Origin: Clostridiales bacterium
Lineage (GTDB): Bacteria > Bacillota > Clostridia > UBA1381
Direction of reading: 5' to 3'
NCBI GenBank assembly: GCA_029226975.1
Contig: JAQXZB010000108.1
Location: 1 to 34,406 of the forward strand
DNA length: 34,406 bases
Part shown: in pieces, positions 10,752 through 34,406 of the stretch
Layout: every line of letters begins with the position of its first letter
Numbering within the stretch: position 1 is the first letter of the stretch
Program-made: the position numbers and the translations under genes
Notes under the pieces: model-generated
Told to the model about the DNA's origin: nothing
The model's database searches: none
Seen by the model: only the letters and a program-made list of their open reading frames with translations

Positions 10752-13700
10752 ATGAAAAAAGTATTATCAAGCATTTTGAGCATATCAATGCTGTGTTCGT
10801 CTGTTGTCGGATTGACGGCAAAAGCGGAAACGATTGATATTGGAACGGTGGTTTTCAAGCATCAGAATGTGGTCGGTTCTCAGACCTGCTACGGTGACGA
10901 TACGGATGAAAAGGTAATTACCGAAATCCCCGATGTTATTCAGGGAATGAGGATAAATCAGCCCGTATTCCGTGCGGAAGGACTTGAAGCAGGCAAAGAC
11001 TATACCGTTAAACAGAAGTTAAAGGACGGAACGGTATTAAGCACAGATGAGGTCACAGCGACAAGTGCGGGCGTTATTGAGTTCAAGCATGCGCGCAACT
11101 GTGAAATGCTTGAAATTTCAGACGGCGGCACGGTTATAGCGGCACTGGGCACGGATTTGGAGTATGTCAACGGTGTTGCGATCACATCGGCACCAATGTC
11201 ATATCAGATTTATCAGCGTGATGAAAACAATCAGGCTGTTATTACCATTAAAGGCGCCGTTTCCGGCGCATCGTCAGTAAGTATTGATATTGACGGTGTA
11301 TCGGAAAATGCGGATATTGTAAACGATGAATTTACATATACTAAAACACTTGATACGGGACTTTATGACATTACAGTAAACTCGGACAAGGGTGAGGCTG
11401 CAAGGTATGAAAAGGTCGGTGTCGGAGATGTATGGGTTGCGGCAGGTCAGTCTAACATGACGGACATGGGTGCGATAACAGATGGCTTTGACCCCGATAA
11501 CGACGACCCGATTAATGAGAATATGCATATAATATATGCCGAGGACTGCAAGTGGCACGAGATGTCGCATCCGGCAGGTGAGGGACGTTTCTTTAAAACA
11601 GGCGTAAGAACCTCACCGGTGACCTCCTTTGCAAGAGAAATTGCAGCGAGCGAGGGTGTGCCGGTAGGTATTGTGCAGTCGTCCGTCGGCGGCACGAATA
11701 TTTATCAGTGGGTTGACGGTGTGAGAAACGATGCAAACAGCGGCTATCTTATGAATGCACTTAAAGCCTGTTTCGACAAAATGCCGTCACACAACATAAA
11801 GGGTGTTTTGTGGTATCAGGGCTGCAATGATGCGATAAACGAGAGCTATGCCTATGATTATAAAAACTTACAGCAGAAGGTTTTTGACGCTATGCGTGAG
11901 TTCTTCGGAGCTGATACTCCGATAATCACAACACAGCTCAATGACGCAAATCAGGACAGCACATCGTCCTTGGGCTATTATGACGCGTGGTCATACGTTA
12001 AAGACGTTCAGCGTCAGAACGAAAGCCTTTACGATAACGTTTATGTTGTCGGTACGGGCGAGCTGGAGCTTGGCGACACAATTCATAACAGTGCCGCATC
12101 AAATGTAAAGCTCGGTACAAAATGGGCTAACACGGCAAAAAATGTTGTGTATGGAGATACTACGGTTGATTTCCGACAGCCGACAATCGAAAGTGCCAAA
12201 GTAACGGGCAGCAGAGAAATCACGCTTGCGTTTAAAGATACAGACGGTTTAACGGCGGCAACGGGTACAAAGCGCATAGGAATCACAAACTCACTTAACA
12301 ATATTGAGCTCGGCAATTTAAAAAATGAATTTGTCATAAGAAGCAATGCATCCCCGCTTGTTACTGCTTCAAACAGTGCAAAGGGTACGGATATGACAAT
12401 TACTTCAGCTGAAATAAAAGACGGTAACAAAGTTGTTCTTACTACTTCCGAAAATCTGCAAGGTTATGTAGCTGTTGATTGTATGTACGGCAAACGCTTT
12501 ACACCGACGCTTGTTGATGCCTCAACAAATGAAAGTGTGCTTGCCTTTTACAATGTTATGGCTGATTTGAACGGAATTGTTGAAGAACCGAAAGGTCCGT
12601 CAAATAAATTTGGTTCGGAATATAACGAAATCAAAGCATTTAATACATCATCATTATCAGCAACAGAAATCAGCAACACAGGATTTATGGTTTCAACAGC
12701 AAGCTCAAATTATAATAATGTTGTAGTAATGGACAACGAAACAAAAGTAAAAAGCGGCTATTATCCCTACGGCTCAGGACTTCCCGATAACGGATATTAT
12801 CTGTTTTTCGGCTCCGGCGGCAACGGCAGTGTGAGCGCGGCGCTGACAATGCCGGAGACGGTTGGAGCGGGTAAATACCTGAAAATTACCTATGCAAAGC
12901 CCTATGCGACAAACGACGGAAGAAACAACAGAAATCAGGATAACAGCGCGGAGGATAAAATAACAGTCGGCACTGAGGTGATTGACCTTAAGGCAAACTG
13001 TGACTTTGATAAATGGTATACCGCAACGGTAAAAGTAAATGACGCTGTTACAAAGCTCAATATAAATTTAGGAAAATGGGGTGCAATGGCAATTTCTGAT
13101 ATAGAAATTCTCGACAGCGCGGACACAATGGAATTTAACGTGGAAGATAACATAACATCGAGATATATAACTTCGCAAAATCAGACAGTCCAATATACCG
13201 CAAACGTATATAACAGCATAACAACGCTTATGGACAGCGCGGAAATTGTTACAAGAGGGACAGCGGACGCAAGCGCGGCAGTCACATATTCGGTAAACGG
13301 CTATAACGGAGTCAGCATTGACAGCAACGGACTTCTCACAATAACACCCAAAGCGCAGGAGGGAACGGTTATCGTAAGTGCCGAATATAACGGTATAAAA
13401 AATACGCTCAATCTTGAGCTTATGGCAGTAAGCAACGCGGACGGGGTTAAAATTGTAGGTGATGAATTGGTGAAAAAGGGTGAAGCTCTTTCGTTTAAAG
13501 CAATACCTACCGCAGACGGAACGGTTATTCCCGAAAGGGCAACCGCATGGAGCATTGAGGGCGACAATCATGGTGCTTCGATTGATGACGGTATATTGAC
13601 GGTACCTGCAAATGCAGAGTCGGGCAATATTACAATTAAGGCAGAGCTGCGGGTAGAAGGCTCACAGACAACATCGAATGTTTCTGACACTTTTACTGTT

Positions 13701-16700
13701 ACTGTAAAGGGAGAAGAAATCTCACCATACACAATAAAGGGTGTATTTCTTGAAAACTGCGCCGCCGATCTTACCAAAGCAGAGGGTGTTGACGGCGTTG
13801 CGGTAGATACGGACAGTGCGCAAAAAGGCTTTAAGGTAATTGTGAAGGCTGCTGACACCAACGGAATAGTAATTGCCCAAACGCAGGCTGTCCTTGATGA
13901 GCTTGCACAGGGCGTTTCGGAAATCAAAACTCCGCTGAACTTTAAGAATGCGGCGCAGGTAAAAGCGTATATAGTAAACGGCAATGATGAAATTGTATCG
14001 GAGGAAATATTCAAAACAACCGAAACAATATACAAAAATGTTCCTCTTGTTGCTGATTGGATAACAGGTGCAAAATCAGGTCTCGGTATGGGGGCGGGTA
14101 TTATGGCACCGCAGGGTGTGCCCTACGGAGTTGATCCGGATACGGTTGATGTATCCGAGCTTAATGTAAGCTATACATACGATAGTGAAACATATCCTAT
14201 GCCGACAACGGATAATGCGCTGTGGTATAAAACAGGCGCGTATCTTAAAGGCAACAGCAACGGAAATAACAGTATTTATGCCCGCGACGGTGTTGACTGG
14301 GAGCAGAAAGCACTGCCGATAGGCAACGGTTACATGGGCGGTATGCTTTTCGGACTTCCTGACAAAGACCAAATTCAAATTAACGAGGAAACCTTCTGGG
14401 CGGCAGGCTACAGGGGTGTTCAGACAAGCGTAGGTACGGGTAATGTAAATAAAAATATGAGTGAGGGCATCAACGGATATATGAGCGTCGGCAATATCTT
14501 TGTTGACTTCAATATGCCGGATAAAGCTCAGATAAAGAATTATTACCGCGACCTTAATCTTGATGAGTCTGTCGCGCATGTGCAGTACGAATATGACGGA
14601 GTTAAATACAATCGTGAATACTTTGCCTCATATCCGAAAGGGGTGCTTGTGTTCAGATATACGTCGGACACAGACGGAGCATTAAGCTTTGATGTAAAGC
14701 CTGTTTCAATGCATCCGGGCGAGGTAACGGTAAATAACGGCGAAATTACAATCATCGGCAGGTTAAAGGACAGTGAGCCTTATTCAGCAGGCGGTAATGC
14801 CGCATGGAATCAGGAGTCTGATTTGGAATACTGCACAAAAATTAAGGTTATAGCAGATGACGGCACTGTGACGGACGGTTACAACACTGTTAATATCAGC
14901 GGTGCGACAGGCGTTACAATTATCGTTGCTGCCGCGGCAGATTATGATGCGGAGCAATTTGAAATGAACGCAGACGGTACGGTAAATATGGATAAAACAC
15001 CGTACAAGAGTACAAGGGGAGTACAGGCGGCAATAGAAAAGGCTGAAAATAGAATAAAAAATGCCTCCGCTGTGACTTATGACGCGTTAAAGGCTGAGCA
15101 TACCGCAGATTACAAGGCGCAGTTTGACACGGTTAAGTTTTCTCTTACAGATAATGACGAGATTTGCACAACGCCTACAGATGAATTACAGTCATCATAT
15201 AACAGCGTGATAGGCACAAAAACATCAGACGGTGTAACAAATGTTTCTTATGACGCAGACGCGTATAAGAATCTTAATAAGCACCTTGAGGAACTGCATT
15301 ATAACTATGCAAGATATATGATGATTTCATCATCACGCTCAACAACAATGCCGGCTACCTTGCAGGGCAAGTGGTGCCAGTCTACAGCGGAAATATGGGG
15401 TTCGTGTTATTGTATCAACATCAATATGGAAATGAATTACTGGTTTGCGGGCGGTGCTAATCTTTTGGACAGCGGTAAGTCACTCATAGGCTGGTTTAAT
15501 TCCCAAATCCCCGCAGGACGAGTAACCGCAAAGAATATGTATAATGTAACGCCGAAGTCATATAAGCTTGAAAACGGCAAGCTTACCTTTGCTGACAGCA
15601 CCGATGAAAAGGACGATGTATTCATAATGCATACCAAGCAGGCAATAATGGGTACAACAGACCTTACGGGAGGCACTAACATTCAGTCGGCAGGCAACAC
15701 CGCATGGCTTATGTATAATCTTTGGGATTTGTATCAGACAAGCGGTGACAGGGAGCTTCTGGCAAATGACCTTTATCCGATAATGAGAAAGACTGCAAAC
15801 TTCTATACGCAGTATCTCTATACAAACGAGAAAAAGACGACATCCGATACAGATAAATATCCTGACGGCTACTATTACACCACATGGGCGGGACGTTCAC
15901 CCGAACAAGGACCTACTCATGAGGGTATCAAGTATGACCTGCAGCTTGTTGCGGGAATGTATGACTACACTATTGCGGCGGCTGAAACACTCGGAGTTGA
16001 CGCTGATAAGGTTGCCGCATGGAAGGAAATCAGAAATCATCTTGAGCTTCCCGTTGAGCTTGGCGATGACGGACAGATAAAGGAATGGGCAGAGGAAACA
16101 GCATATAACACAGACGCAAACGGAAATGCATTGGGAGATCCCGTTCACAGGCATATTTCGCATCTTGTGGGACTGTATCCCGGAACGCTTATAAACCGCG
16201 ATACTCCTGAATTGCTAAGCGGCGCTAAGGTGGTATTACAGAAGCGCGGCGACGATTCGACAGGCTGGTCCTGCTCGAACAAATTCCTGCTTTGGGCAAG
16301 AACGCTTGAGGGTGACAAGGCGCTTGAGCTGTTCCGCTATCAGCTTGCGAAGAAAACGTATTCAAACCTGTTCGATACTCACGCACCGTTCCAGATTGAC
16401 GGTAATTTCGGCTCTGCCGCGGGAGTTATGGAGCTTTTAGTGCAGTCACAGACAGGTGATATTTATATCCTTCCCGCGCTCCCCTCCGTTTGGGATAAGG
16501 GCGAGATAAGCGGTATAAGGGCTAAAAACGGTGCGGAAGTATCCATAAAATGGTCTGATAATGAAGCTGAAAGCTTCACAATCACACCTGCCGCGGACGG
16601 TGACATAACAATAGGCTATGATAAGGAAAACGGTACCTTTATGCTTAACGGCGAAACGTATGCCGACATGAGAAACGGCAAAAAATACACAATAAAGAAT

Positions 16701-16985
16701 GCAAAAGCCGGCACGATATACACGTTCACAGCGACAGAAGCGCAGAATAAGCCGGAAATTACCGTTACCGACAGCAGCGTAAGCGTAACAAATGCTTCCG
16801 AGGGTGTTCTTATGGTAGCGGGCTATGATACAAACGGAGTGCTTATTAAGACAGAATTTATAGACGGATACAGCGCGGAGCTTACGGGCTATGAGAATTG
16901 TCATAAGCTTGAAGCCTTTTTGTGGGACAGTATTTCGGGCATGAAGCCGCTTGCCGAAAGCGCTTCATACACAAAATCAAACTGA
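10752..16985 (+). CDS. Giant secreted SGNH acetylesterase (SASA) - GH95 fucosidase/galactosidase fusion
   Basis: A 2077-aa secreted enzyme. Residues 1-26 form a signal peptide ending near AKA-ET. An SGNH esterase of the sialate-O-acetylesterase/CE6 type follows: Ser235 in GQSNM, the GG block SSVGGTN, VLWYQGCND with Asn359, and Asp442/His445 in GDTIH complete the triad. Residues ~620-790 look like a carbohydrate-binding beta-sandwich and ~800-1000 like bacterial Ig-type domains. GH95 occupies about 1150-1935: the LPIGNGYMGGMLFG N-terminal domain, CININMEMNYW around 1555, a SPEQGPTHEG segment near 1717 and QIDGNFG near 1881, where the family keeps its Asn pair and catalytic Asp. A C-terminal module ends with ENCHKLEAFLWDS. 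No anchor is visible. ATG has GAAAGGA upstream. It probably removes acetyl groups and alpha-L-fucose or alpha-L-galactose from the same branched glycan. Confidence 0.88.
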   Translation: MKKVLSSILSISMLCSSVVGLTAKAETIDIGTVVFKHQNVVGSQTCYGDDTDEKVITEIPDVIQGMRINQPVFRAEGLEAGKDYTVKQKLKDGTVLSTDEVTATSAGVIEFKHARNCEMLEISDGGTVIAALGTDLEYVNGVAITSAPMSYQIYQRDENNQAVITIKGAVSGASSVSIDIDGVSENADIVNDEFTYTKTLDTGLYDITVNSDKGEAARYEKVGVGDVWVAAGQSNMTDMGAITDGFDPDNDDPINENMHIIYAEDCKWHEMSHPAGEGRFFKTGVRTSPVTSFAREIAASEGVPVGIVQSSVGGTNIYQWVDGVRNDANSGYLMNALKACFDKMPSHNIKGVLWYQGCNDAINESYAYDYKNLQQKVFDAMREFFGADTPIITTQLNDANQDSTSSLGYYDAWSYVKDVQRQNESLYDNVYVVGTGELELGDTIHNSAASNVKLGTKWANTAKNVVYGDTTVDFRQPTIESAKVTGSREITLAFKDTDGLTAATGTKRIGITNSLNNIELGNLKNEFVIRSNASPLVTASNSAKGTDMTITSAEIKDGNKVVLTTSENLQGYVAVDCMYGKRFTPTLVDASTNESVLAFYNVMADLNGIVEEPKGPSNKFGSEYNEIKAFNTSSLSATEISNTGFMVSTASSNYNNVVVMDNETKVKSGYYPYGSGLPDNGYYLFFGSGGNGSVSAALTMPETVGAGKYLKITYAKPYATNDGRNNRNQDNSAEDKITVGTEVIDLKANCDFDKWYTATVKVNDAVTKLNINLGKWGAMAISDIEILDSADTMEFNVEDNITSRYITSQNQTVQYTANVYNSITTLMDSAEIVTRGTADASAAVTYSVNGYNGVSIDSNGLLTITPKAQEGTVIVSAEYNGIKNTLNLELMAVSNADGVKIVGDELVKKGEALSFKAIPTADGTVIPERATAWSIEGDNHGASIDDGILTVPANAESGNITIKAELRVEGSQTTSNVSDTFTVTVKGEEISPYTIKGVFLENCAADLTKAEGVDGVAVDTDSAQKGFKVIVKAADTNGIVIAQTQAVLDELAQGVSEIKTPLNFKNAAQVKAYIVNGNDEIVSEEIFKTTETIYKNVPLVADWITGAKSGLGMGAGIMAPQGVPYGVDPDTVDVSELNVSYTYDSETYPMPTTDNALWYKTGAYLKGNSNGNNSIYARDGVDWEQKALPIGNGYMGGMLFGLPDKDQIQINEETFWAAGYRGVQTSVGTGNVNKNMSEGINGYMSVGNIFVDFNMPDKAQIKNYYRDLNLDESVAHVQYEYDGVKYNREYFASYPKGVLVFRYTSDTDGALSFDVKPVSMHPGEVTVNNGEITIIGRLKDSEPYSAGGNAAWNQESDLEYCTKIKVIADDGTVTDGYNTVNISGATGVTIIVAAAADYDAEQFEMNADGTVNMDKTPYKSTRGVQAAIEKAENRIKNASAVTYDALKAEHTADYKAQFDTVKFSLTDNDEICTTPTDELQSSYNSVIGTKTSDGVTNVSYDADAYKNLNKHLEELHYNYARYMMISSSRSTTMPATLQGKWCQSTAEIWGSCYCININMEMNYWFAGGANLLDSGKSLIGWFNSQIPAGRVTAKNMYNVTPKSYKLENGKLTFADSTDEKDDVFIMHTKQAIMGTTDLTGGTNIQSAGNTAWLMYNLWDLYQTSGDRELLANDLYPIMRKTANFYTQYLYTNEKKTTSDTDKYPDGYYYTTWAGRSPEQGPTHEGIKYDLQLVAGMYDYTIAAAETLGVDADKVAAWKEIRNHLELPVELGDDGQIKEWAEETAYNTDANGNALGDPVHRHISHLVGLYPGTLINRDTPELLSGAKVVLQKRGDDSTGWSCSNKFLLWARTLEGDKALELFRYQLAKKTYSNLFDTHAPFQIDGNFGSAAGVMELLVQSQTGDIYILPALPSVWDKGEISGIRAKNGAEVSIKWSDNEAESFTITPAADGDITIGYDKENGTFMLNGETYADMRNGKKYTIKNAKAGTIYTFTATEAQNKPEITVTDSSVSVTNASEGVLMVAGYDTNGVLIKTEFIDGYSAELTGYENCHKLEAFLWDSISGMKPLAESASYTKSN

Positions 16986-23281: not shown

Positions 23282-25852
23282 TTAAAACCGCATTGTTCGG
23301 ATAAATTCCCGTATTTCCTGCTCCGCCTGTTCCACCTCATCGCGAAATTCCTGTGCCGAAACGCGTATGGCACCGCTGCCGAGTATGATGAGCTGTTCGA
23401 GAGCGTCCGAGGTGGCAACCCGTACCCGACGCTTCCGGCCTAACTTATGGGCGGTTTTTTCTATATACATATCCGCGGTTTCCGCTTCCTTGGTATATAC
23501 CACGCTGATATTATGGATTTTTTCCACCTCGCCGGGATTTCCCTTTACCTTATACGCGTCAAAAACCAGTATAAGCTCACACTGCCTGTAGCCCTGATAA
23601 TTGCACAGCTTGTCGATGAGCATACCGCGCGCGGCTTCAAGGCTTTGTTCGGCAGCCTTTTTTGTATCCTCCCATGCAAAGATTATATTGTAGCCGTCAA
23701 CGAGAAGATATTCAGGTCCCTTGGGTATCGGGGAGACCTTTGTTTTCTTTTTGGGAGCGGGCTCGCGGCGGGTTTGAAGCGCATGATATTTGTCACTCTT
23801 TATTGAGCCGTAAGTCTTTTCAAAAATCCGCATAAGCTCCTTATCGCTTGCGGCACTGTCAAGATATGCGCTGACCCGCGCGCCCACGTCCGGCTCCTCC
23901 TCTTCCTCCGGCTCAAAGCTTATTCCCGTATCTATATGCATATAATCGCGCACCTTATCCCATTTTACGACAAATCCGGCACCGTGGGAGCAGAATACGG
24001 AATCGGCGGGATTTTCCAAATCATTGTCGCTGTTGTAGCCGATTTCTTCGATTACTTGTTCGGGATTGTGACATTCCTCATAGCCCTTGGGCAGACAGAT
24101 AAGCCGTCCTCGGCCGCCGGTGTAGCCGATGACCTCCCGGTGATAATCCCGCATTTCAAAAACCGGGGCGGCGCCTGTGATGACCGCCCGTTCGTCAAGC
24201 GTTTCGGGGGGATTAAAACGTCCGCTCATTCGCTGTATGTCCGTAAGAGCGCGTCCGACACATTCTTGCGGAACTTCAAGCCTAAATTCATACCATGGCT
24301 CCAAAAGAACGCTCTCGGCGCATTTTAAGCCATGGCGTACGGCGCGGTATGTTGCCTGTCTGAAATCTCCGCCTTCCGTATGCTTTTGATGAGCGCGCCC
24401 GGCTATCAGGGTGATGTTTATATCCGTTATGGGAGAGCCGGTAAGAGTGCCGATATGCTGTTTTTCCTCAAGATGCGTAAGTATCAGCCGCTGCCAGTTT
24501 CTGTCAAGCTCGTCCTCGGGGCAGTCGCTGTAAAAATGCAGTCCGCTGCCGCGCTTGGCAGGCTCTAAGAGCAGATGCACTTCGGCATAATGGCGAAGAG
24601 GCTCGTAATGTCCGATTCCCTCTGCGGGAGCGGCAATGGTTTCTTTATAAGCAATGCTGCCCCGGCCGAAGGTGACATTCATGCCGAACCGCTCGGCAAT
24701 CAGCCGCTGCAAAACTTCAAGCTGTATTTCGCCCATCAGCCGAACCTGTATTTCGTGAAGCTGCTCGTTCCAGAGAATATGCAGCTGCGGATCCTCGTCC
24801 TCAAGCTTTTTAAGCTCGCTAAGCGACTTTGCAATATCCGCACCATCGGGAAGAATTATGCTGTAGGATAAAACCGGCTCAAGCAGGGCAGGCTCGGAGT
24901 CGCTTTGCGCACCCAAGCCCTCGCCGGGATAGGTTTGAGTAAGTCCGGTTACGGCGCAGACGCTCCCTGAGGGGGCTTCATCAACGGCAATGAATTTGGC
25001 ACCGGAATATATGCGTATTTGATTTACCTTCTCGGACCACTTATCACGTCCGTTTCGGGTGCCGCAAAGCAGGTCGCGGACACGCAAAGTACCGCCGGTG
25101 ATTTTCATATGCGTAAGCCGTCTGCCCTGTTCGTCCTCCGAAAGCTTAAACACCTTTGCGCCGAAGCTTTCGCCGACAACAGGATTTTTTGTGTATTCGT
25201 CAAAGCCTTTCATAAATTCACTCACGCCATCAAGCTTTAGGGCAGAGCCGAAATAGCAGGGGAAAAGCTGACGCTTGCATATTGCCGAGCGTATATCGCG
25301 GATATTGGGAACGCCGTTTTCAAGATAGCCGTTCATAAGCTGTTCACTGCACATTGCCATATCCTCATAAAGGCCCTCCTTATCGGTAAAATCCACACAG
25401 CAATCGCCGAGACGGCTCTTTATCATACTCATCAATTCTTCATGGGAGAATGAGGAAATGTCGGTTTTATTTACAAAAATAAACACCCCAACATTATAGC
25501 GCTCCAAAAGCCGCCACAGTGTTTCGGTATGGGTCTGAACACCGTCTGAGGCGCTTATGACAAGTACGGCGTAATCCAAAACCTGAAGTGTTCGTTCGGT
25601 TTCAGCCGAAAAGTCAACATGACCGGGAGTGTCCAGTAAAGTAAGCTCCATATCGCCGAAGCTCATTACCGCCTGCTTGGAAAAAATCGTTATTCCCCGG
25701 TCGCGCTCTATTTCATTGGTGTCGAGAAACGCGTCTTTGTGATCCACCCTGCCGAGGGTACGGATTTCACCGGCTGTGTAGAGCATTGCCTCGGAAAGTG
25801 TTGTCTTGCCGGAGTCAACATGGGCAAGAATACCTGTTACAAGTCTTTTCAT
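23282..25852 (-). CDS. EF-G/Tet(M)-like translational GTPase fused to a C-terminal NYN (YacP-like) nuclease domain
   Basis: An 856-aa protein. Residues 1-~625 have the layout of ribosomal-protection/EF-G GTPases: AHVDSGKTTLSEAML, RDRGITIFSK, DTPGHVDF, NKTD, then domains II-V (ALLEPVLSYSIILPD in parts; SVLLEPWYEFRLEVPQECVG in part). A charged linker of about 80 residues leads to a NYN domain in the last ~150 residues: LLVDGYNIIFAW, LILVFDAYKVKG, EAETADMYIEK, VATSDALEQ, with the acidic residues of this PIN-like RNase fold in place. The second ATG (25852) is chosen because AAAGGA is only 2 bases from the first ATG (25858) and 8 from the second. Whether it gives tetracycline resistance is doubtful: domain IV lacks a Tet(M)-like YSPVS loop. 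It likely acts on ribosomes and may cut RNA. Confidence 0.85.
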   Translation of the reverse strand: MKRLVTGILAHVDSGKTTLSEAMLYTAGEIRTLGRVDHKDAFLDTNEIERDRGITIFSKQAVMSFGDMELTLLDTPGHVDFSAETERTLQVLDYAVLVISASDGVQTHTETLWRLLERYNVGVFIFVNKTDISSFSHEELMSMIKSRLGDCCVDFTDKEGLYEDMAMCSEQLMNGYLENGVPNIRDIRSAICKRQLFPCYFGSALKLDGVSEFMKGFDEYTKNPVVGESFGAKVFKLSEDEQGRRLTHMKITGGTLRVRDLLCGTRNGRDKWSEKVNQIRIYSGAKFIAVDEAPSGSVCAVTGLTQTYPGEGLGAQSDSEPALLEPVLSYSIILPDGADIAKSLSELKKLEDEDPQLHILWNEQLHEIQVRLMGEIQLEVLQRLIAERFGMNVTFGRGSIAYKETIAAPAEGIGHYEPLRHYAEVHLLLEPAKRGSGLHFYSDCPEDELDRNWQRLILTHLEEKQHIGTLTGSPITDINITLIAGRAHQKHTEGGDFRQATYRAVRHGLKCAESVLLEPWYEFRLEVPQECVGRALTDIQRMSGRFNPPETLDERAVITGAAPVFEMRDYHREVIGYTGGRGRLICLPKGYEECHNPEQVIEEIGYNSDNDLENPADSVFCSHGAGFVVKWDKVRDYMHIDTGISFEPEEEEEPDVGARVSAYLDSAASDKELMRIFEKTYGSIKSDKYHALQTRREPAPKKKTKVSPIPKGPEYLLVDGYNIIFAWEDTKKAAEQSLEAARGMLIDKLCNYQGYRQCELILVFDAYKVKGNPGEVEKIHNISVVYTKEAETADMYIEKTAHKLGRKRRVRVATSDALEQLIILGSGAIRVSAQEFRDEVEQAEQEIREFIRTMRF

Positions 25853-25887
25853 TGACATTGTCCTTTCGCTAAATTGTCTTTATATGA

Positions 25888-26014: not shown

Positions 26015-26048
26015 TAACATGACATATTTGAAAAAAAGAGGGATTGCC

Positions 26049-28202
26049 GTGGCTGATAAATACATAGCGCACAAAACTGAAGCGGGAGATGAACAAAGTC
26101 TTAAAACACATCTTGAAAACGTGGCACAGCTTGCCGAGGAATATGCGGTGGACGAATTTAAGGAATATGCCCGATTGTGCGGACTTATGCATGATCTGGG
26201 AAAGTATACGCAGGCGTTCCAAAATCGAATAAACGGGACAGGACCTCGTACGGAACACGCAAGATACGGAGCCCAGGAGCTGCATAAAAATAAGCTTAAT
26301 ACATACATACCCATGCTTGAATACTGCATTGCAGGGCATCATACGGGACTGTGCGACGGAGGAAGCAGAAGCGATTTGCCCGATACACCTACACTGCATG
26401 GGATTTTAAAGCGGGATACGGAGGATTATTCCGCCTTTCAAAATGAGATTTCTTATCAGCTTCCCGAAGATACAATAAAAAAAATGGTTATATGCGGCAA
26501 TGACCGGGAGGAGAGCATTGAACGCTATGCATTTTTGACAAGGTATATATACTCATGTCTTACAGATGCGGATTTTATCGATACCGAAAGCTTTTGCGCG
26601 CCGGATACAAAAAGGGGACTGCCCGGAGATTTTGCGGCGGCGTATGACGCGGTGTGCAGAAAGCTTGGGGCATTTGTACCCGAAACAGAGCTTCAAAAAG
26701 CCAGGAATAAGCTGCAGGAGCAGGTATATAAAAGTGTTGAGGAAAATAAGAGTATATATATTGTGGATATGCCTACCGGCAGTGGAAAAACTCTTTGCAG
26801 TATAAAGGCGGCGCTTAAACAGGCTTTGGACGAGGGAAAAAAGCGCATTATTTATGTTATACCCTATGTGAGCATAATCGAGCAGACCGCGGAGATTTTT
26901 CGTTCTGTTTTCGGTGATGTTCTGCCTGTGGTTGAGCACCATTCAAATTTTGATTTTGATGATAAGGATGTTAACGAGAACGAATCGGAAAGAGAAAAGC
27001 TGAAGCGAAGCTGTGAGAACTGGGACGCGCCGCTTATAGTGACCACAAATATACAGTTTTTTGAATCGCTGTATCATCACAAAAGCAGCAGATTAAGAAA
27101 GCTTCATAACCTGGCTCAAAGTGTAATTGTGTTTGATGAAATACATATGCTGCCCACGCAATATATCAAGCCTTGTATGCGGGCGATAGGCTATATAACA
27201 AGGTATCTGCACAGTACGGTGCTGCTGATGTCGGCAACCATGCCGGATTACGGGCATTTGCTTGAAAAATATGCCGACAAGGATGAGTGTGTATATGCGG
27301 TGAAAGATAAATCATGCTTTGACGCATTTAAAAAATGCCGCTACAGCTTTATCGGCGAGGTGTCGGCTGAAGGTCTTGCGGATAAGGCAATGCAGTGTAA
27401 AAATGCTCTTATAATTGTAAACAAGCGTGAAACGGTAAGACAGATTTATAATCTGTGCAAAGATGCTTGTGAGGTGTATCAACTGTCTACCTATATTACT
27501 CCCGAGCACCGCTCAAGGATTATCTCGGCAATTCGTGACCGTCTTAACAGAGGTGAGCGGATAATAGTTATATCAACCTCGCTTATTGAGGCGGGAGTGG
27601 ACTTGGATTTTGAAACGGTATTTCGTGAAAATGCGGGACTTGATAATATTATTCAGTCCGGCGGTCGCTGCAACCGGGAGGGCAGAGCAAAAACCGGTGA
27701 TGTGTTCGTGTTTGAAACGTCGGCTGTAACAAGAGAAATTCAGCTAAAGGCGAATATAACAAGAAGCCTGTTTAACGAATTTGAGGATATTACTTCACAG
27801 GAATGTGTGAGGGAATATTATGACAGACTTTTTGCGGTGTATGATGAGGAAATTGAAGAAAACAGCATTGCCAATCTTGCCGGAAAAAATATAAATGTAT
27901 ATGAAATACCATTTAGGCAATATTCGGAAAATTTCGGATTTATACAAAACGAAACCTGCGCTGTGGTAATACCCGGTAAAGAAAACCAAAATCTGCTTGA
28001 TGAGTTAAGCTTCGGCAAGCTTTCGGTTAAGCGTCGGCTTCAGAAATACTGCGCTTCGCTGCACCGATATGAGCTTGATGAGTTTATGAAAGTGGGACTT
28101 ATAAAGCAGCTTCCCGGAGGCGTGTATGTGCTTACAAACAGCGATTATTACGATGAGTATTCGGGTTTGGATATGCATAAGGAAATGAATTATTGTATTT
28201 AA
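26049..28202 (+). CDS. cas3: CRISPR-associated nuclease-helicase Cas3 (type I-C)
   Basis: A 717-aa fused HD-nuclease/DExH helicase that degrades DNA opened by Cascade. The HD domain is N-terminal: LMHDLGKYTQAF with His48-Asp49, EHARYGAQEL, and AGHHTGLCDGG. The helicase follows with MPTGSGKTL around residue 241, the DEIH box in VIVFDEIHMLP near 363, LLMSATMP (motif III), and motif VI in QSGGRCNREGRA. GTG 26049 is used as start because AGAGGGA lies 5 bases upstream and the promoter would begin transcription after the alternative ATG 26019. First gene of the operon; a small hairpin separates it from cas5c. Confidence 0.95.
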   Translation: MADKYIAHKTEAGDEQSLKTHLENVAQLAEEYAVDEFKEYARLCGLMHDLGKYTQAFQNRINGTGPRTEHARYGAQELHKNKLNTYIPMLEYCIAGHHTGLCDGGSRSDLPDTPTLHGILKRDTEDYSAFQNEISYQLPEDTIKKMVICGNDREESIERYAFLTRYIYSCLTDADFIDTESFCAPDTKRGLPGDFAAAYDAVCRKLGAFVPETELQKARNKLQEQVYKSVEENKSIYIVDMPTGSGKTLCSIKAALKQALDEGKKRIIYVIPYVSIIEQTAEIFRSVFGDVLPVVEHHSNFDFDDKDVNENESEREKLKRSCENWDAPLIVTTNIQFFESLYHHKSSRLRKLHNLAQSVIVFDEIHMLPTQYIKPCMRAIGYITRYLHSTVLLMSATMPDYGHLLEKYADKDECVYAVKDKSCFDAFKKCRYSFIGEVSAEGLADKAMQCKNALIIVNKRETVRQIYNLCKDACEVYQLSTYITPEHRSRIISAIRDRLNRGERIIVISTSLIEAGVDLDFETVFRENAGLDNIIQSGGRCNREGRAKTGDVFVFETSAVTREIQLKANITRSLFNEFEDITSQECVREYYDRLFAVYDEEIEENSIANLAGKNINVYEIPFRQYSENFGFIQNETCAVVIPGKENQNLLDELSFGKLSVKRRLQKYCASLHRYELDEFMKVGLIKQLPGGVYVLTNSDYYDEYSGLDMHKEMNYCI

Positions 28203-28234: not shown

Positions 28235-28957
28235 ATGAGTTATGGATTTAAAATAATGGTAAGCGGAGATTATGCTTGTTTTACGAATCCGGCGATGAAG
28301 GTTGAAAGGGTGAGCTATGACGTGCCCACACCGGGAGCGCTGGAGGGGCTTTTAAAAAGCATTTACTGGAAGCCTGCCATACGGTATGAGATTGATAAAA
28401 TCATAGTTTTTAATCCGATTGATTTTATCAATATACGCCGCAATGAGGTGACGGACAAGGTCAGCTTATCAAAGGTGAAAAAGCAGATGAAAACCAAAGT
28501 GGAGGAGGCGGACATATGTACTAAAGATACAATTATGCAGCGCGGCGGCATGGTTTTAAAAAATGTACTCTACGGAATTGAGTTTCATTTTGAGCTTACC
28601 GGAATAAGGAGCGAAAACGGTGACGAAAATCGGGAGAAGCATTATAATATTTTGTTAAGGCGTCTAAAGAACGGACAGTGCTTTCGTCAGCCGGTACTGG
28701 GCTGTCGCGAATTTTCGGTAAGAAGCATTGAACCGGTGGATGAATTTCCCATGGATAAAATATCACCGTCGCTTTTGGGTGACAGGGATTTGGGGTATAT
28801 GCTTTATCGAATGAATTTTAAGGATAAGGGCAGACCCAAAAACGATGACTGGGAGGAGAGAAAATTCTCGGACGATGCCGACGCTTCTTTTTACAGACCG
28901 CATATGATTGACGGTGTGATAGATGTAGAAAAATACAGGGGGACGGTAAAATGCTGA
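28235..28957 (+). CDS. cas5c: Cas5c (Cas5d), Cascade subunit and pre-crRNA endoribonuclease
   Basis: A 240-aa RAMP protein. In type I-C this subunit replaces Cas6: it cuts the repeat hairpin at its 3' base and stays on the 5' handle. The N-terminal RAMP strand (YGFKIMVSGDYACF) is followed by the Cas5 signature YDVPTPGALEGLLKSIYWKP; the Tyr of SIYWKP sits where the catalytic Tyr of characterised Cas5c lies, though I have not aligned it. A Gly-rich/basic stretch at IMQRGGMVLKNVLYGIE precedes the second half. ATG 28235 has AAGGAGGA at proper distance; an in-frame TTG at 28193 inside cas3 is not credible. The end overlaps cas8c by 7 bases. Confidence 0.94.
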   Translation: MSYGFKIMVSGDYACFTNPAMKVERVSYDVPTPGALEGLLKSIYWKPAIRYEIDKIIVFNPIDFINIRRNEVTDKVSLSKVKKQMKTKVEEADICTKDTIMQRGGMVLKNVLYGIEFHFELTGIRSENGDENREKHYNILLRRLKNGQCFRQPVLGCREFSVRSIEPVDEFPMDKISPSLLGDRDLGYMLYRMNFKDKGRPKNDDWEERKFSDDADASFYRPHMIDGVIDVEKYRGTVKC

Positions 28958-30729
28958 TAAATGCGCTTAATCAATATTATGATATGCTTTCCCGTGCCGG
29001 CAAGGTATGCCCCGAGGGCATTTCAAAACAGAAGGTCAGTCATATGATAATGCTTCGTCCGGACGGGAGCATAAGCAGTATTACGGATATACGAAGACAG
29101 TCAAAGCCTGATAAAAAAGGCAAAACAAAGCTTGAAATGCGAGAGATTGACTTGCCCGAAAGAACACAGAAGCCCGGAATAGATTTTAATATAATAGAAC
29201 ACAGACCGCTCTATATTTTCGGCCTGAATTACGATAAAAAAACAGGTGAGTTTTCGCCGGAGGATAAAACCATGAAGGCGAAAAAATCACATGAGTGCTT
29301 TGTAAAAGGAAACCTTGATTTTACCGAGGGTATGAGTTCTGAAATTGTAAAAGCTTACAGAAACTTTATAAGCCGCTGGAAGCCTGAGGAGGAAACCGAA
29401 AATAAGCATCTAAAACAGCTTGGCAAGGACTATGACGGAGGGTATTTCTGCTTTGCTCTTGACGGAAATACAAAATGCACGCTCCATGATATGGACGGCG
29501 AGATAATGAAAAAGGTTTTAAACAGCCCAAATACAGCCGCCGAGCCGGACGGAATATGTGCCGTAACGGGAGAATGGGACCAAATTGCCCGTATACATGA
29601 TAAGGTACAAGGGATTGCAGGAGGACAGGCTTCGGGCTGTTCCCTGGTATGCTTTAAGGGTACGGCGGTAGAGTCATACGGAAAAACACAGTCCTATAAC
29701 AGCTCAATATCTCAGTCAGTGATGAAACGATATACACAGGCGTTAAACATTTTGCTTAAGGACAGAACCCATAAAATGTACCTTGAGGATTTAACTGTTG
29801 TGTTCTGGGCAATGAGCGAGGATGACAGTGCGGAAACCGATATGTTTTCCATGCTTATGGAGGGGGATAAGGCGGACTCAGAGCAGACGGATAAAGCAAT
29901 CTTTAATGCAATGCGGGAGCTTGGGCAGGGAAGACAGGCGGATTTGGCGGCTCTTAATATTGACGAAAATGTCGAGTTTTACATTGCCGGGCTTGCTCCG
30001 AATAATTCAAGGATAGCGCAGAAGTTCGTATACCGCGACAAATTCGGGAAAATATTTGAAAATCTTGCAAGGCATCAGGCTGATATGCTTTTGGAGGACA
30101 CAAAGGCACAGATACCGCTGTGGCGTATATGCAGTGAGCTTAAGTCGCCCAAAAGCAATAAGGAAAAAACACCGCCGCCGCTTCTGTCGGCAATGTTTAC
30201 GGCAATACTTAACGGAACAAGATACCCGGATGCCTTGCTCGAAACTGCAGTGAGACGTGTAAAAACGGATAAATTTGTAAATTATGTTCGTGCGGGAATA
30301 ATAAAGGCCTGCATAAACAGAAAAGTAAGAATAAATAATGAAACGGAGGAAATAAAAATGGCGTTGGACAAGGAAAATATCAATCAGGCGTATTTGTGCG
30401 GAAGATTGTTTGCAGTGTTGGAGCGAGTGCAGAAAAATGCGGCAAAGACCAAGCTTGACCGCACAATAAAGGACTCATACTTTGCCTCGGCATGCGCAAA
30501 GCCGGCAACCGTATTTCCAAAGCTTATGGTGCTTGCTCAGTATCATCTGGGAAATGATGATTTTGCGGTAGCGGACAATAAGCTTATGGGAGAAATAACG
30601 GACAAGCTATGCTGTGAGTTCCCACAGACGCTGCCCTTAAATGAACAGGGCAGATTTATCCTGGGATATTATCACCAAAATCAAGATTTTTACAAAAAAT
30701 CTTCTGATAAAACCGAGATTTCGGAGTAA
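28951..30729 (+). CDS. cas8c: Cas8c (Csd1), large Cascade subunit
   Basis: A 592-aa type I-C large subunit that recognises the PAM and unwinds target DNA. Csd1 landmarks: the N-terminal MLINALNQYYDMLSR, GKTQSYNSSISQSVMKRYT in the middle, FYIAGLAPNNSRIAQKF around residue 340, and the terminal RFILGYYHQNQDFYK. ATG 28951 overlaps the cas5c stop and has AGGGGGA upstream, indicating translational coupling. The last 123 codons carry an internal start for a separate small subunit. Confidence 0.95.
   Translation: MLINALNQYYDMLSRAGKVCPEGISKQKVSHMIMLRPDGSISSITDIRRQSKPDKKGKTKLEMREIDLPERTQKPGIDFNIIEHRPLYIFGLNYDKKTGEFSPEDKTMKAKKSHECFVKGNLDFTEGMSSEIVKAYRNFISRWKPEEETENKHLKQLGKDYDGGYFCFALDGNTKCTLHDMDGEIMKKVLNSPNTAAEPDGICAVTGEWDQIARIHDKVQGIAGGQASGCSLVCFKGTAVESYGKTQSYNSSISQSVMKRYTQALNILLKDRTHKMYLEDLTVVFWAMSEDDSAETDMFSMLMEGDKADSEQTDKAIFNAMRELGQGRQADLAALNIDENVEFYIAGLAPNNSRIAQKFVYRDKFGKIFENLARHQADMLLEDTKAQIPLWRICSELKSPKSNKEKTPPPLLSAMFTAILNGTRYPDALLETAVRRVKTDKFVNYVRAGIIKACINRKVRINNETEEIKMALDKENINQAYLCGRLFAVLERVQKNAAKTKLDRTIKDSYFASACAKPATVFPKLMVLAQYHLGNDDFAVADNKLMGEITDKLCCEFPQTLPLNEQGRFILGYYHQNQDFYKKSSDKTEISE
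30358..30729 (+). CDS. cas11c: Cas11c small subunit, translated from an internal start in cas8c
   Basis: Within cas8c, in the same frame, ATG 30358 is preceded by GGAGGA at 30345-30350, 7 bases away. It gives a 123-aa helical protein beginning MALDKENINQAYLCGRLFAV and ending in the Cas8c C-terminus. The sequence around this start is identical for 17 bases (from GGAGGAAA to ATGG) to the start region of cas7c, which is strong evidence of real initiation. Internal translation of Cas11 from cas8 is established for type I-C, I-B and I-D. The product forms the inner belly of the Cascade complex with Cas7. It is normally missed by gene callers because it lies inside another gene in the same frame. 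Confidence 0.87.
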   Translation: MALDKENINQAYLCGRLFAVLERVQKNAAKTKLDRTIKDSYFASACAKPATVFPKLMVLAQYHLGNDDFAVADNKLMGEITDKLCCEFPQTLPLNEQGRFILGYYHQNQDFYKKSSDKTEISE

Positions 30730-30772
30730 ATTTTTCAATCGTAACCAATATAAATTAAAGGAGGAAATAAAA

Positions 30773-31636
30773 ATGGAAGCTATTAACAACAAGTATGAAT
30801 TTACGGTACTCTTCGATGTGGAGAACGGAAACCCCAACGGGGATCCGGATGCGGGGAATATGCCCAGAGTGGATCCGGAAACCTCATACGGGATAATAAC
30901 GGATGTGTGCATAAAAAGAAAAATACGCAATTACGTAGAGCTGTGTATGGAGGGTAAGGAGGGCTATAATATTTTAATAAAGCCGGATAAATCCCTTAAT
31001 TCAAAGTTTACCGAGGCATATAAAGAAAGCAGCTTAAAAACGGGACAAAAGGGAAAAAATCCCGATGATGTCAAGGCTGCAAGAGATTATATGTGCGAAA
31101 ATTATTTTGATGTAAGGACATTCGGTGCCGTAATGAGCACCGGAAACGATCCCTGCGGAATTGTAAGAGGTCCGGTGCAGATTAACTTTGCAAGAAGCAT
31201 AGACCCGGTATATATTCAGGATATTTCCATTACACGTCAGGCGCGCACAACGGAGGACAGAATGGAAACGGGCGAGACGGAAATGGGAAGAAAGAGCATT
31301 ATTCCGTATGCGCTCTACCGCGTTGACGGATATGTTTCGGCAGCCCTTGCCCAAAAGGTGACCGGCTTTAGCGAAGATGATATAGAAATTTTGTGGAAAG
31401 CAATTATAAATATGTTCGAGCATGACAGAAGCGCCGCAAGGGGCAAAATGTGTGTAAGAAAGCTTATTGTGTTTAAGCACGAAAGCCCTCTGGGCAATGC
31501 ACCGTCACATACGCTGTTTGACAAGATAAAGGTTTCAAAAAAAGACGGAGTGGTATCTGCACGCTCATACGAAGATTATGAGGTAAGCATTGATGCCCGG
31601 ATGCCGGACGGAGTTTACATAGAGGAAAAGCTGTAA
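30773..31636 (+). CDS. cas7c: Cas7c (Csd2), Cascade backbone subunit
   Basis: A 287-aa RAMP protein that polymerises along the crRNA. Signatures are NKYEFTVLFDVENGNPNGDP at the N-terminus, YFDVRTFGAVMSTG in the middle with the FGAV motif, and GPVQINFARSIDPV followed by SITRQA. ATG 30773 is taken because AAAGGAGG lies 8 bases upstream; longer in-frame extensions run back into cas8c. It lies 43 bases after cas8c, the largest gap within the effector genes. The stop codon overlaps the cas4 start by one base. Confidence 0.95.
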   Translation: MEAINNKYEFTVLFDVENGNPNGDPDAGNMPRVDPETSYGIITDVCIKRKIRNYVELCMEGKEGYNILIKPDKSLNSKFTEAYKESSLKTGQKGKNPDDVKAARDYMCENYFDVRTFGAVMSTGNDPCGIVRGPVQINFARSIDPVYIQDISITRQARTTEDRMETGETEMGRKSIIPYALYRVDGYVSAALAQKVTGFSEDDIEILWKAIINMFEHDRSAARGKMCVRKLIVFKHESPLGNAPSHTLFDKIKVSKKDGVVSARSYEDYEVSIDARMPDGVYIEEKL

Positions 31637-32283
31637 TGATAAACATACGCTCAATACAGCATTATATGTATTGTCCTCGGAGATTTGGTCTGCTTGAGAT
31701 AAATAAGGACTGGGCGGAAAATGTGTTTGTTGTTAAAGCAAATCTCATGCATGAGAGAGTACATTCGGGAAGTCACGATTACAGAAGCGCCAAAAAAATT
31801 GAAATGAGCTCGGTAGCGGTTTACAATGATGAGCTTGATTTATATGGTGTAACCGACTGCATTGAATTTGAAAAGTCCTCAGCCGGAAATGAAATTGAGG
31901 GATTGGAGGGAAAATATAAAGTTCATATAATTGAATATAAGCCCAAGCAGCCAATGTCGGGTGAAATACGGGAAACCGACGCTATTCAGGTTTTTGCGCA
32001 AATGCTGTGTGCAGATTATGTGTGGAACTGCAAAAGTGACGGTTATGTGTATTATGCGGATACAAGAAAAAGAGTAAAGCTGCCGCTTCGGGAGGAGTTT
32101 GACAGATATTATGCGCTGCTTAAAGAGCTTATGCAAAACATGAAGAATTGTATGGAAAGCGGCGTAATTCCTCCGCGAGTAAAGGGACAAAATTGCAGCG
32201 GGTGCTCCGTAAAGGATGTATGCATGCCGGCAAATAAGAAATATGAGGTTAAAAAGCTTGTAATGAGCGAGGAGGACATATGA
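31636..32283 (+). CDS. cas4: Cas4, Fe-S exonuclease for spacer acquisition
   Basis: A 215-aa RecB-like nuclease with a 4Fe-4S cluster; it trims prespacers and checks the PAM together with Cas1-Cas2. Cys13 in YMYCPRRF and Cys187, Cys190 and Cys196 in NCSGCSVKDVC are the cluster ligands. The nuclease core shows GVTDCIEF (Asp), HIIEYKPKQP (Glu-x-Lys) and the QVFAQMLCADY helix. ATG 31636 overlaps the cas7c stop (TAATG) and the end overlaps cas1 through ATGA, so translation is coupled throughout the adaptation genes. Confidence 0.95.
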   Translation: MINIRSIQHYMYCPRRFGLLEINKDWAENVFVVKANLMHERVHSGSHDYRSAKKIEMSSVAVYNDELDLYGVTDCIEFEKSSAGNEIEGLEGKYKVHIIEYKPKQPMSGEIRETDAIQVFAQMLCADYVWNCKSDGYVYYADTRKRVKLPLREEFDRYYALLKELMQNMKNCMESGVIPPRVKGQNCSGCSVKDVCMPANKKYEVKKLVMSEEDI

Positions 32284-33302
32284 GAAAGTTGTTAAATACT
32301 TTGTATGTTACCGATGAAAACATATATCTCACACTGGACGGAGAAAACATTGTGTGCAAGGCGGATAACGAGGTGAAGCTCAGACTGCCGTTTTCAAATC
32401 TTGAGGGGATTTTTTGCTTTAGCTATTTGGGCTGTTCTCCGGCGCTTATGGGTAAATGTGCGCAGTACGGTATTCCTATAAGCTTTATTTCGCCGTCGGG
32501 ACAGTTTCTTGCCAGGGTGCAGGGGAAAAGCAGAGGAAATATTCTTTTGAGAAAAAGACAGTTTGAGTTGTTTAAAGAACCGCCGAGTGTGCTTTTGCAA
32601 AATACTGTGGCGGCAAAGCTTGCAAATACCCGAAGCGTCATAAAGCGTACATTGAAGGATTATCCTCAAACAGATGAGGACGGCGAGCTAAGCGGTTGTA
32701 TAAAAAAGCTTACCGATTATATTGAACAGGTATATAATGAAGAAAATCCAACTGCAATACTCGGTATAGAGGGGAGCGGGGCAAAAGCGTATTTTGATAT
32801 ATTTAACCGGCTTATTTTAAAGCAAAAAGAGGATTTTTGCTTCGTCATGCGAAGCAAAAGACCGCCGCTTGACAGAGTGAATGCGGTTTTGTCATTTATG
32901 TATACCATTCTTACGCTGGATTATGCTGCCGCACTTGAAAGTGTCGGATTAGACAGCTATATGGGTTTTTATCATACACCGAGACCGGGCAGAGAATCTC
33001 TTGCCTGTGATTTGGTTGAGGAGGCAAGATGTATAGCGGAAAGATTTGTGCTGACTGCGATTAACCTAAAAATACTTCAGGCAGATGACTTCGAAACTCA
33101 AATAAGCGGGGCGGTTTTTCTGAATAAGGACGGAAAAAAGAAAATACTCACAAAATGGCAGGAAAAGAAACGCAGTGATATTATGCATCCGTATCTTAAG
33201 CAGAAAATCCAGCTGGGACTTTTGCCGTATGTGCAAAGTACACTCCTTGCAAAGTACATAAGGGGAGAGCTTGATGAATATCCCTGTTACATAGTGAGGT
33301 GA
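32280..33302 (+). CDS. cas1: Cas1, CRISPR integrase
   Basis: A 340-aa metal-dependent integrase that inserts spacers at the leader end. The metal ligands are visible: Glu164 in GIEGSGAKAYF, His232 in GFYHTPRPGRESLACD and Asp244 at the end of that segment. The N-terminal beta domain begins LLNTLYVTDENIYLTLDGEN, as in type I-C Cas1. Starts inside the cas4 stop (ATGA). Ends 5 bases before the cas2 ATG. Confidence 0.96.
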   Translation: MRKLLNTLYVTDENIYLTLDGENIVCKADNEVKLRLPFSNLEGIFCFSYLGCSPALMGKCAQYGIPISFISPSGQFLARVQGKSRGNILLRKRQFELFKEPPSVLLQNTVAAKLANTRSVIKRTLKDYPQTDEDGELSGCIKKLTDYIEQVYNEENPTAILGIEGSGAKAYFDIFNRLILKQKEDFCFVMRSKRPPLDRVNAVLSFMYTILTLDYAAALESVGLDSYMGFYHTPRPGRESLACDLVEEARCIAERFVLTAINLKILQADDFETQISGAVFLNKDGKKKILTKWQEKKRSDIMHPYLKQKIQLGLLPYVQSTLLAKYIRGELDEYPCYIVR

Positions 33303-33307
33303 TCGAT

Positions 33308-33598
33308 ATGATGACTTTGGTAAGTTATGATGTGTCAACCGTAGATGCAGCCGGACGAAAACGCTTGCACAAGGTTGCAAAGGAATGTGTAAACTACGGT
33401 CAGAGGGTTCAGAATTCGGTATTTGAGGTTGATGTGGATTATTCGACATTTTTGAAGCTAAAGGATAGGCTGATTAAAATTATTGATAAGGATAAGGACA
33501 GCCTAAGGTTTTATTATTTGGGCAACAATTGGAAGAACAAGATTGAGCATATAGGTGCAAAGGAGACATATGATCCTGAGGGCGCGCTTATATTGTAG
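33308..33598 (+). CDS. cas2: Cas2, adaptation complex subunit
   Basis: A 96-aa ferredoxin-fold protein that bridges two Cas1 dimers. VSYDVSTVDAAGRKRLHKVA with Asp8 after the first strand, then NYGQRVQNSVFEVDVD, is typical of type I-C Cas2. ATG 33308 is chosen because GTGAGG lies 8 bases upstream; ATG 33311 is possible, and GTG 33299 overlaps the cas1 stop but would sit on the ribosome site. Last gene of the cas operon; the leader follows at once. Confidence 0.95.
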   Translation: MMTLVSYDVSTVDAAGRKRLHKVAKECVNYGQRVQNSVFEVDVDYSTFLKLKDRLIKIIDKDKDSLRFYYLGNNWKNKIEHIGAKETYDPEGALIL

Positions 33599-33735
33599 CA
33601 GCGAACCCATGATAAAAGTGATTTTCCGGGGAGGTTCGCCGCAAAAAGAAGGGTATTTTGCCGTTTTAGCGGCAAAAATACAGTAATAGTCCGCTTCATG
33701 TGGGTGCAAACGAGATATTTTATACAATATCTAGG
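33599..33735 (+). promoter_or_regulatory. CRISPR leader
   Basis: The 137 bases between cas2 and the first repeat contain no gene. Three inverted repeats are seen: GCGAACC (33601-33607) with GGTTCGC (33633-33639), TTTTGCCG (33656-33663) with CGGCAAAA (33670-33677), and AGATATT (33713-33719) with AATATCT (33726-33732), the last ending 3 bases before the first repeat. CATGTGGGTGC at 33697 resembles the middle of the repeat. The repeat orientation (ATTGAAA-like end distal) and cas2 position make this the acquisition end. I cannot assign a promoter for the array with confidence. Confidence 0.85.
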
Positions 33736-34406
33736 GTCGCACCCCGCATGGGGTGCGTGAGTTGAAATCTGTATAGAACGGTTGTCAATAGTTCCGACAG
33801 CAGTCGCACCCCGCATGGGGTGCGTGAGTTGAAATTGATATTTGAATATCACTTGTGACCCCTCATAAAGTCGCACCCCGCATGGGGTGCGTGAGTTGAA
33901 ATATCCTCAAACTCAGCGCCGCTTTTGGTGGTATAGAGTCGCACCCCGCATGGGGTGCGTGAGTTGAAATGCTTGACCGCTTCAACCTCATCAATAAACC
34001 CCGTGTCGCACCCCGCATGGGGTGCGTGAGTTGAAATATTGCGTCTGCAAGTCCGTCAAATACGCCGGGGTGTCGCACCCCGCATGGGGTGCGTGAGTTG
34101 AAATCCGTCATAAATGTAGTCTATTATTAGTGACTGATGTCGCACCCCGCATGGGGTGCGTGAGTTGAAATTTTCGAGGGTATTGTAAAAAAGCTTGAGC
34201 CGGTAAGTCGCACCCCGCATGGGGTGCGTGAGTTGAAATCCATTACATGAACAAGGGAGAGCTGGAAGCGTAGTCGCACCCCGCATGGGGTGAGAGAGTT
34301 GAAATAATTATGCCGTAAAAATGCAATATATTCCACAAGTCGCACCCCGCATGGGGTGCGTGAGTTGAAATTAAAACACTTATCGGCGAATAATACAGCA
34401 GTTTGT
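33736..34406 (+). CRISPR. Type I-C CRISPR array, 10 repeats, right end cut
   Basis: Ten 33-base repeats start at 33736, 33803, 33870, 33938, 34005, 34072, 34139, 34207, 34273 and 34339. Each begins GTCGCACCCC, has the loop GCAT, the return arm GGGGTGCG, and ends TGAGTTGAAAT. CGCACCCC and GGGGTGCG form the 8-bp hairpin cut by Cas5c, leaving the 11-base handle. Spacers are 33-35 bases and all nine complete ones are different. Nine repeats are identical; the ninth has two changes. The tenth spacer reaches the window edge after 35 bases, so the array probably continues. Perfect repeats and the intact adaptation genes suggest an active locus. Confidence 0.98.
34273..34305 (+). repeat. Variant ninth CRISPR repeat
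   Basis: This copy differs from the other nine at position 21 (C to A, base 34293) and position 23 (T to A, base 34295), reading GGGGTGAGAGAGTTGAAAT at its end. The first change breaks the penultimate pair at the base of the hairpin; the second alters the first base of the 11-base 5' handle. A perfect repeat follows it, so this is not a normal end-of-array decay. Confidence 0.95.

Follow-up and report, generated by a model that had tools for sequence, protein, structure and literature searches.

The cas8c gene of a type I-C CRISPR-Cas operon from a Clostridiales bacterium almost certainly contains the start of a second, in-frame gene, cas11c, at an internal ATG (positions 30358-30360), and the 17-base identity between this start region and that of cas7c is most likely a coincidence. 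A probability of ∼0.92 was assigned to the reading in which the locus is an ordinary I-C arrangement of one coding region and two proteins, with an internal Cas11c start that is used and a resemblance to cas7c that arose by chance.

The DNA analyzed is a stretch of 34,406 nucleotides (the window), which carries a complete type I-C CRISPR-Cas operon on the + strand. The operon comprises cas3 (HD and helicase; 26019-28202; TIGR01587 and TIGR01596 over cut-off), cas5c (28235-28957; TIGR01876, 160.7 bits against a cut-off of 85), cas8c/csd1 (28951-30729; TIGR01863, 378 bits, and PF09709), which encodes a full-length large subunit of 592 residues and 67.1 kDa, cas7c/csd2 (30773-31636; 287 residues; TIGR02589, 338.6 bits against 182), cas4 (31636-32283; TIGR00372 over cut-off), cas1c (32280-33302; TIGR03640, 404 bits against 385), and cas2 (33299-33598; TIGR01573 over cut-off). 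All seven genes exceeded the NCBIfam cut-off and lie adjacent to a CRISPR array, and the models matching cas5c, cas8c, cas7c, and cas1c are specific to type I-C. The array, located by repeat search at 33728-34406 on the same strand, runs toward the end of the window and contains at least 10 repeats with the core GTCGCACCCCGCATGGGGTGCGTGAGTTGAAAT; the repeat at 34265-34307 deviates from the others, with GGGGTGAGAGAG in place of GGGGTGCGTGAG. Elsewhere in the window, an open frame of 2077 residues occupies 10752-16985 on the + strand, and an EF-G/Tet-protection-like GTPase of 858 residues is encoded at 23282-25858 on the - strand. The top model for the latter, tet_protect, scored 386 bits, below its cut-off of 775, and ∼250 more residues follow the matched region, which ends at residue 593; the protein is likely to be a translation-factor GTPase and not a resistance protein. 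A search of viral contigs with the Cas8c of the window found no relative.

The predicted cas11c gene (30358-30729, + strand) begins at codon 470 of the 592-codon cas8c and would encode a protein of 123 residues with a computed mass of 14.0 kDa. Its putative Shine-Dalgarno (SD) sequence, GGAGGA at 30345-30350, ends 7 bases upstream of the ATG; an in-frame, SD-preceded start is thereby found near the 3′ end of cas8c, at the Cas11 domain boundary. The predicted product is homologous to the solved Cas11 small subunit and aligns with solved chains end to end and with the same N terminus, from residue 2 of the chains (8g9s_H, E 1e-19; 7kha_K, E 4e-18). The Cas11 of 8G9S, 8G9T, 8G9U, and 8GAF is a 124-residue chain annotated as both “Cas11” and “Phage associated protein,” and it matches residues 3-118 of the window product with an E value of 1e-19. 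The type I-C Cascade of these entries is the Neisseria lactamica system; the host is another one, and there is no difference in principle. The Cas11c of Desulfovibrio vulgaris (7KHA chain K; PMC7684278) is likewise produced in frame from within the 3′ part of cas8c, has ∼124 residues, and shares homology with the window product along its full length, in register from residue 2, although the sequences differ and the Cas11c of the window is a prediction from sequence. Internal translation of Cas11 is described for D. vulgaris type I-C in PMC7684278, and PMC11899642, with the work cited there, describes internal starts in cas8b and cas10d that yield Cas11b and Cas11d. The premise of the earlier note, that such translation is established for type I-C, is borne out by these sources; the phenomenon is already published, and the present locus adds another instance of it. 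The likeness to Cas11b and Cas11d is one of principle, in that a small subunit is obtained from one gene that specifies two proteins, whereas these small subunits belong to other subtypes with other large subunits.

Conservation of the internal start was assessed with cas8c genes gathered from the same family, order, class, and phylum using the Csd1 model, of which 128 were aligned. A start codon (ATG, GTG, or TTG) was present at the aligned column in 109/128 loci, and 106 of these 109 starts had an SD of at least 5 bases; the start codon itself varied (53 ATG, 53 GTG, and 3 TTG). When the best nearby start was considered, an SD was found in 118/126 loci compared with 3.6% of 3,366 other in-frame ATG, GTG, or TTG codons in the same genes. 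The conserved SD-start was also present in 31/32 loci of an extension set, two of which repeat earlier ones, and in 39/39 loci from named genomes, many of which are shared with the first set. For the scan of named genomes, an alignment of 11 sequences was too diverged, and the 39 loci were obtained with a closer alignment of seven sequences. At loci L076, L077, L079, L095, and L098, the SD is separated from the aligned ATG by only 4 bases, but two codons further on is an in-frame TTG at a distance of 10 bases, and the Cas11 start in this subgroup may be that TTG.

The peptide encoded immediately upstream of the Cas11 start varies (KEEIK, KEVLT, KEGY, and GEVID) while the SD persists. Where Glu occupies position -4, it is coded GAG in 82/84 cases, and Lys at position -5 is coded AAG in 54/54 cases, against a background of 37% for each; elsewhere in the same cas8c genes, GAA and AAA are commoner than GAG and AAG. 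Synonymous codons are thus fixed so as to spell the SD, and the internal site is under constraint at the nucleotide level. These data bear on the idea that the internal SD-ATG arose by chance and is not used. Motifs of this kind do arise randomly, given that cas8c contains a second in-frame ATG, at 29272, that is preceded by GGAGG with the same 8-base spacing as the real site. Taken as a sham control, however, the ATG at 29272 was kept in 0/19 close relatives, whereas the site at 30358 was kept in 19/19. In view of this difference, the fixed synonymous codons at the internal site, and the solved Cas11 chains that begin in register with the product, an unused chance motif is extremely improbable. 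The earlier note had proposed the hidden Cas11c gene and had named poor conservation of GGAGGA-ATG in close relatives as an outcome that would speak against it; the conservation found is complete among those 19, and the gene is strongly supported by its conserved start and SD, the constraint on synonymous codons, and the register with solved Cas11. On these grounds, the internal start would be expected to be translated in this organism.

The sequence GGAGGAAATAAAAATGG is present at 30345-30361, in frame within cas8c, and at 30760-30776, where it contains the SD (GGAGGA, 30760-30765) and the ATG (30773) of cas7c. The identity of these 17 bases and their coordinates, as first reported in the earlier note together with the 7-base spacing before ATG 30358, proved exact at both places. 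The exact 17-mer has just two copies in the 2.8-Mb genome, both of them in this operon, and the 16-mer through the ATG, with up to 2 mismatches allowed, was found twice in the window compared with a chance expectation of 0.04. Across the genome, however, 51 places lie within 2 mismatches of the same 16-mer and many resemble ordinary SD-start sites, which implies that GGAGGAAATAAAAATGG is close to the usual initiation site of this genome. Local RNA folding predicted a similar openness from SD to start at the Cas11 and cas7c sites (0.73 to 0.79 unpaired) and therefore does not discriminate between them.

Two origins had been suggested for the identity, namely a past duplication and selection for matched output. 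According to the first, the two initiation regions would be one sequence that a duplication or gene conversion had copied in this lineage, and the 17 identical bases with their two genomic copies are what such an event would leave; moreover, the 17/17 match of the window is the highest Cas11/cas7 identity of 126 loci, albeit a single extreme case. The flanks of the two sites do not bear this out, with 15/46 bases identical (33%) from -60 to -14 and 12/46 (26%) from +4 to +50, on both sides the level of shuffled sequence. A copy or duplication from cas7c was therefore rejected, there being no likeness outside the initiation region. Comparison with other loci fits vertical descent with few substitutions: the cas7c site of the window matches those of L035, L037, and L039 at 17/20 bases, and the Cas11 site of the window agrees at 18/20 with that of the sister locus L041. 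Loci L063 and L066 have the identical 17-mer at the Cas11 start, yet AAAGGATGGATTGAAAATGG and AAAGGACGATTTGAAAATGA at cas7, which, taken with the 17/20 kin of the cas7c site, points to a few substitutions in the cas7c site of this lineage. Descent of both regions from one sequence is accordingly judged highly improbable.

The second suggestion, that selection holds the Cas11 and cas7 sites alike for matched rates of synthesis, draws on the fact that both proteins are multi-copy subunits. For 126 loci, a 20-base segment spanning the Cas11 start was set against the 20-base segment spanning the cas7 start, taken both from its own locus and from every other one, which is the comparison across related I-C loci that the earlier note had recommended. 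Mean identity was 9.21/20 within the same locus and 9.21/20 across loci; in the close clade of the 20 closest loci, the corresponding values were 12.70 and 12.73 (p 0.59). Similarity within a locus is therefore not above that between loci, a result that tells against duplication and matched output alike. SD lengths at the two sites were uncorrelated (rho 0.07, p 0.45), SD spacing showed a weak negative correlation (rho -0.20), and many loci pair GTG at Cas11 with ATG at cas7. A weak excess of the longest shared run was seen over all loci (p 0.011, or 0.052 when the window was omitted), with p 0.17 in the close clade and 0.44 there without the window; this one nominal signal leans on the window itself and vanishes within the clade. 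In addition, the Cas7:Cas11 ratio of 7:2 given for D. vulgaris in PMC7684278 means that equal output of the two proteins is neither needed nor expected, and 17 shared bases would not bind the sites to equal rates because ribosomes translating cas8c presumably sweep the internal one. Matched output was rejected on the combined evidence of same- and cross-locus identity, longest run, and the correlations of SD length and spacing, and it too is most improbable.

A narrower version, in which the cas7c site was overwritten by the Cas11 site, or selected to equal it, in this lineage alone by short gene conversion or co-tuning, is considered very unlikely. Within the close clade, runs of at least 17 identical consecutive bases occurred in 2/380 cross-locus pairs, both involving the cas7c site of the window and reaching 19/20 identity. 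The match between the Cas11 and cas7c sites is thus most likely a coincidence, one that is mildly unusual but was chosen after the fact.

In the ordinary arrangement preferred here, ribosomes initiating at 28951 would produce the 592-residue Cas8c, and other ribosomes would initiate at ATG 30358 after binding the internal GGAGGA (30345), producing the 123-residue Cas11c, identical to the C terminus of Cas8c. In the I-C Cascade described in PMC7684278, seven Cas7 and two small subunits accompany a single Cas8c and a single Cas5c. The Cascade of the window, if built like the solved I-C complexes, would combine crRNA with seven Cas7c, two Cas11c, and a single copy each of Cas8c and Cas5c, and the Cas11c copies would help to hold the non-target strand. 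The Cas11 site would have been fixed by its codons and by an old constraint, and the cas7c site of this lineage would have drifted onto the same letters; the identity would then be a chance likeness of two SD sites, both strong and both with A-rich spacers, in a genome that is itself rich in A+T.

Among the loci surveyed, two encode Cas8c proteins with extra Cas11 domains. In genome G704, cas8c of locus L106 (L106:1085-3841; G704:C4:87584-90340) is a single frame of 919 residues with the usual C-terminal Cas11 domain and two extra Cas11 domains in tandem. DNA identity among the copies is 70-72%, which indicates an old duplication and not an assembly error, and the frame lies within an intact cas5-cas8-cas7-cas4-cas1 order, in which cas4, cas5, and cas1 were called from the open reading frame sequences with no profile search. 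The usual internal start position reads ATT, and no SD-preceded ATG, GTG, or TTG was found at the boundaries of the three Cas11 domains; L187 and L188, family relatives of G704, have an ordinary single Cas11 domain and retain the internal start. The three Cas11 lobes per L106 chain equal in number those of solved I-C Cascade, where one belongs to Cas8c and two are free Cas11. In genome G348, locus L107 (minus strand; G348:C86:15205-17490) has a Cas8c frame of 784 residues with one extra fused Cas11 domain. Its two Cas11 copies are 63% identical in DNA, and it keeps a strong internal SD-GTG, from which the predicted product is a Cas11-Cas11 protein of 254 residues. From their sequences, L106 and L107 look like natural cases in which covalent fusion has replaced or supplemented internal initiation. 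No further tandem Cas11 fusions were recognized in plasmids, phages, or 398 genomes of the class of G704; multi-piece plasmid matches were rejected as fusions, since in each of them a single Cas11 domain was hit by several copies in the query. A literature search, which was not a full literature check, found no reports of fused Cas8c of the L106 or L107 type. A different anomaly was seen at L108 (G225:C1:1794520-1797583), where Cas8c is in two open frames ∼1.1 kb apart (profile positions 2-403 and 401-587) and is probably split by an insertion.

In summary, across the type I-C loci surveyed in this phylum, the internal Cas11c start is near-universal and constrained at the nucleotide level, and with this start confirmed, an annotation of the present locus that names cas8c alone overlooks one subunit of Cascade. 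The claim that its ribosome site was copied can be abandoned. A natural test of the purpose of the internal start is provided by the relative that is without it, whose Cas8c has exactly two additional Cas11 domains fused to it, as many as there are free Cas11 copies in solved I-C Cascade.
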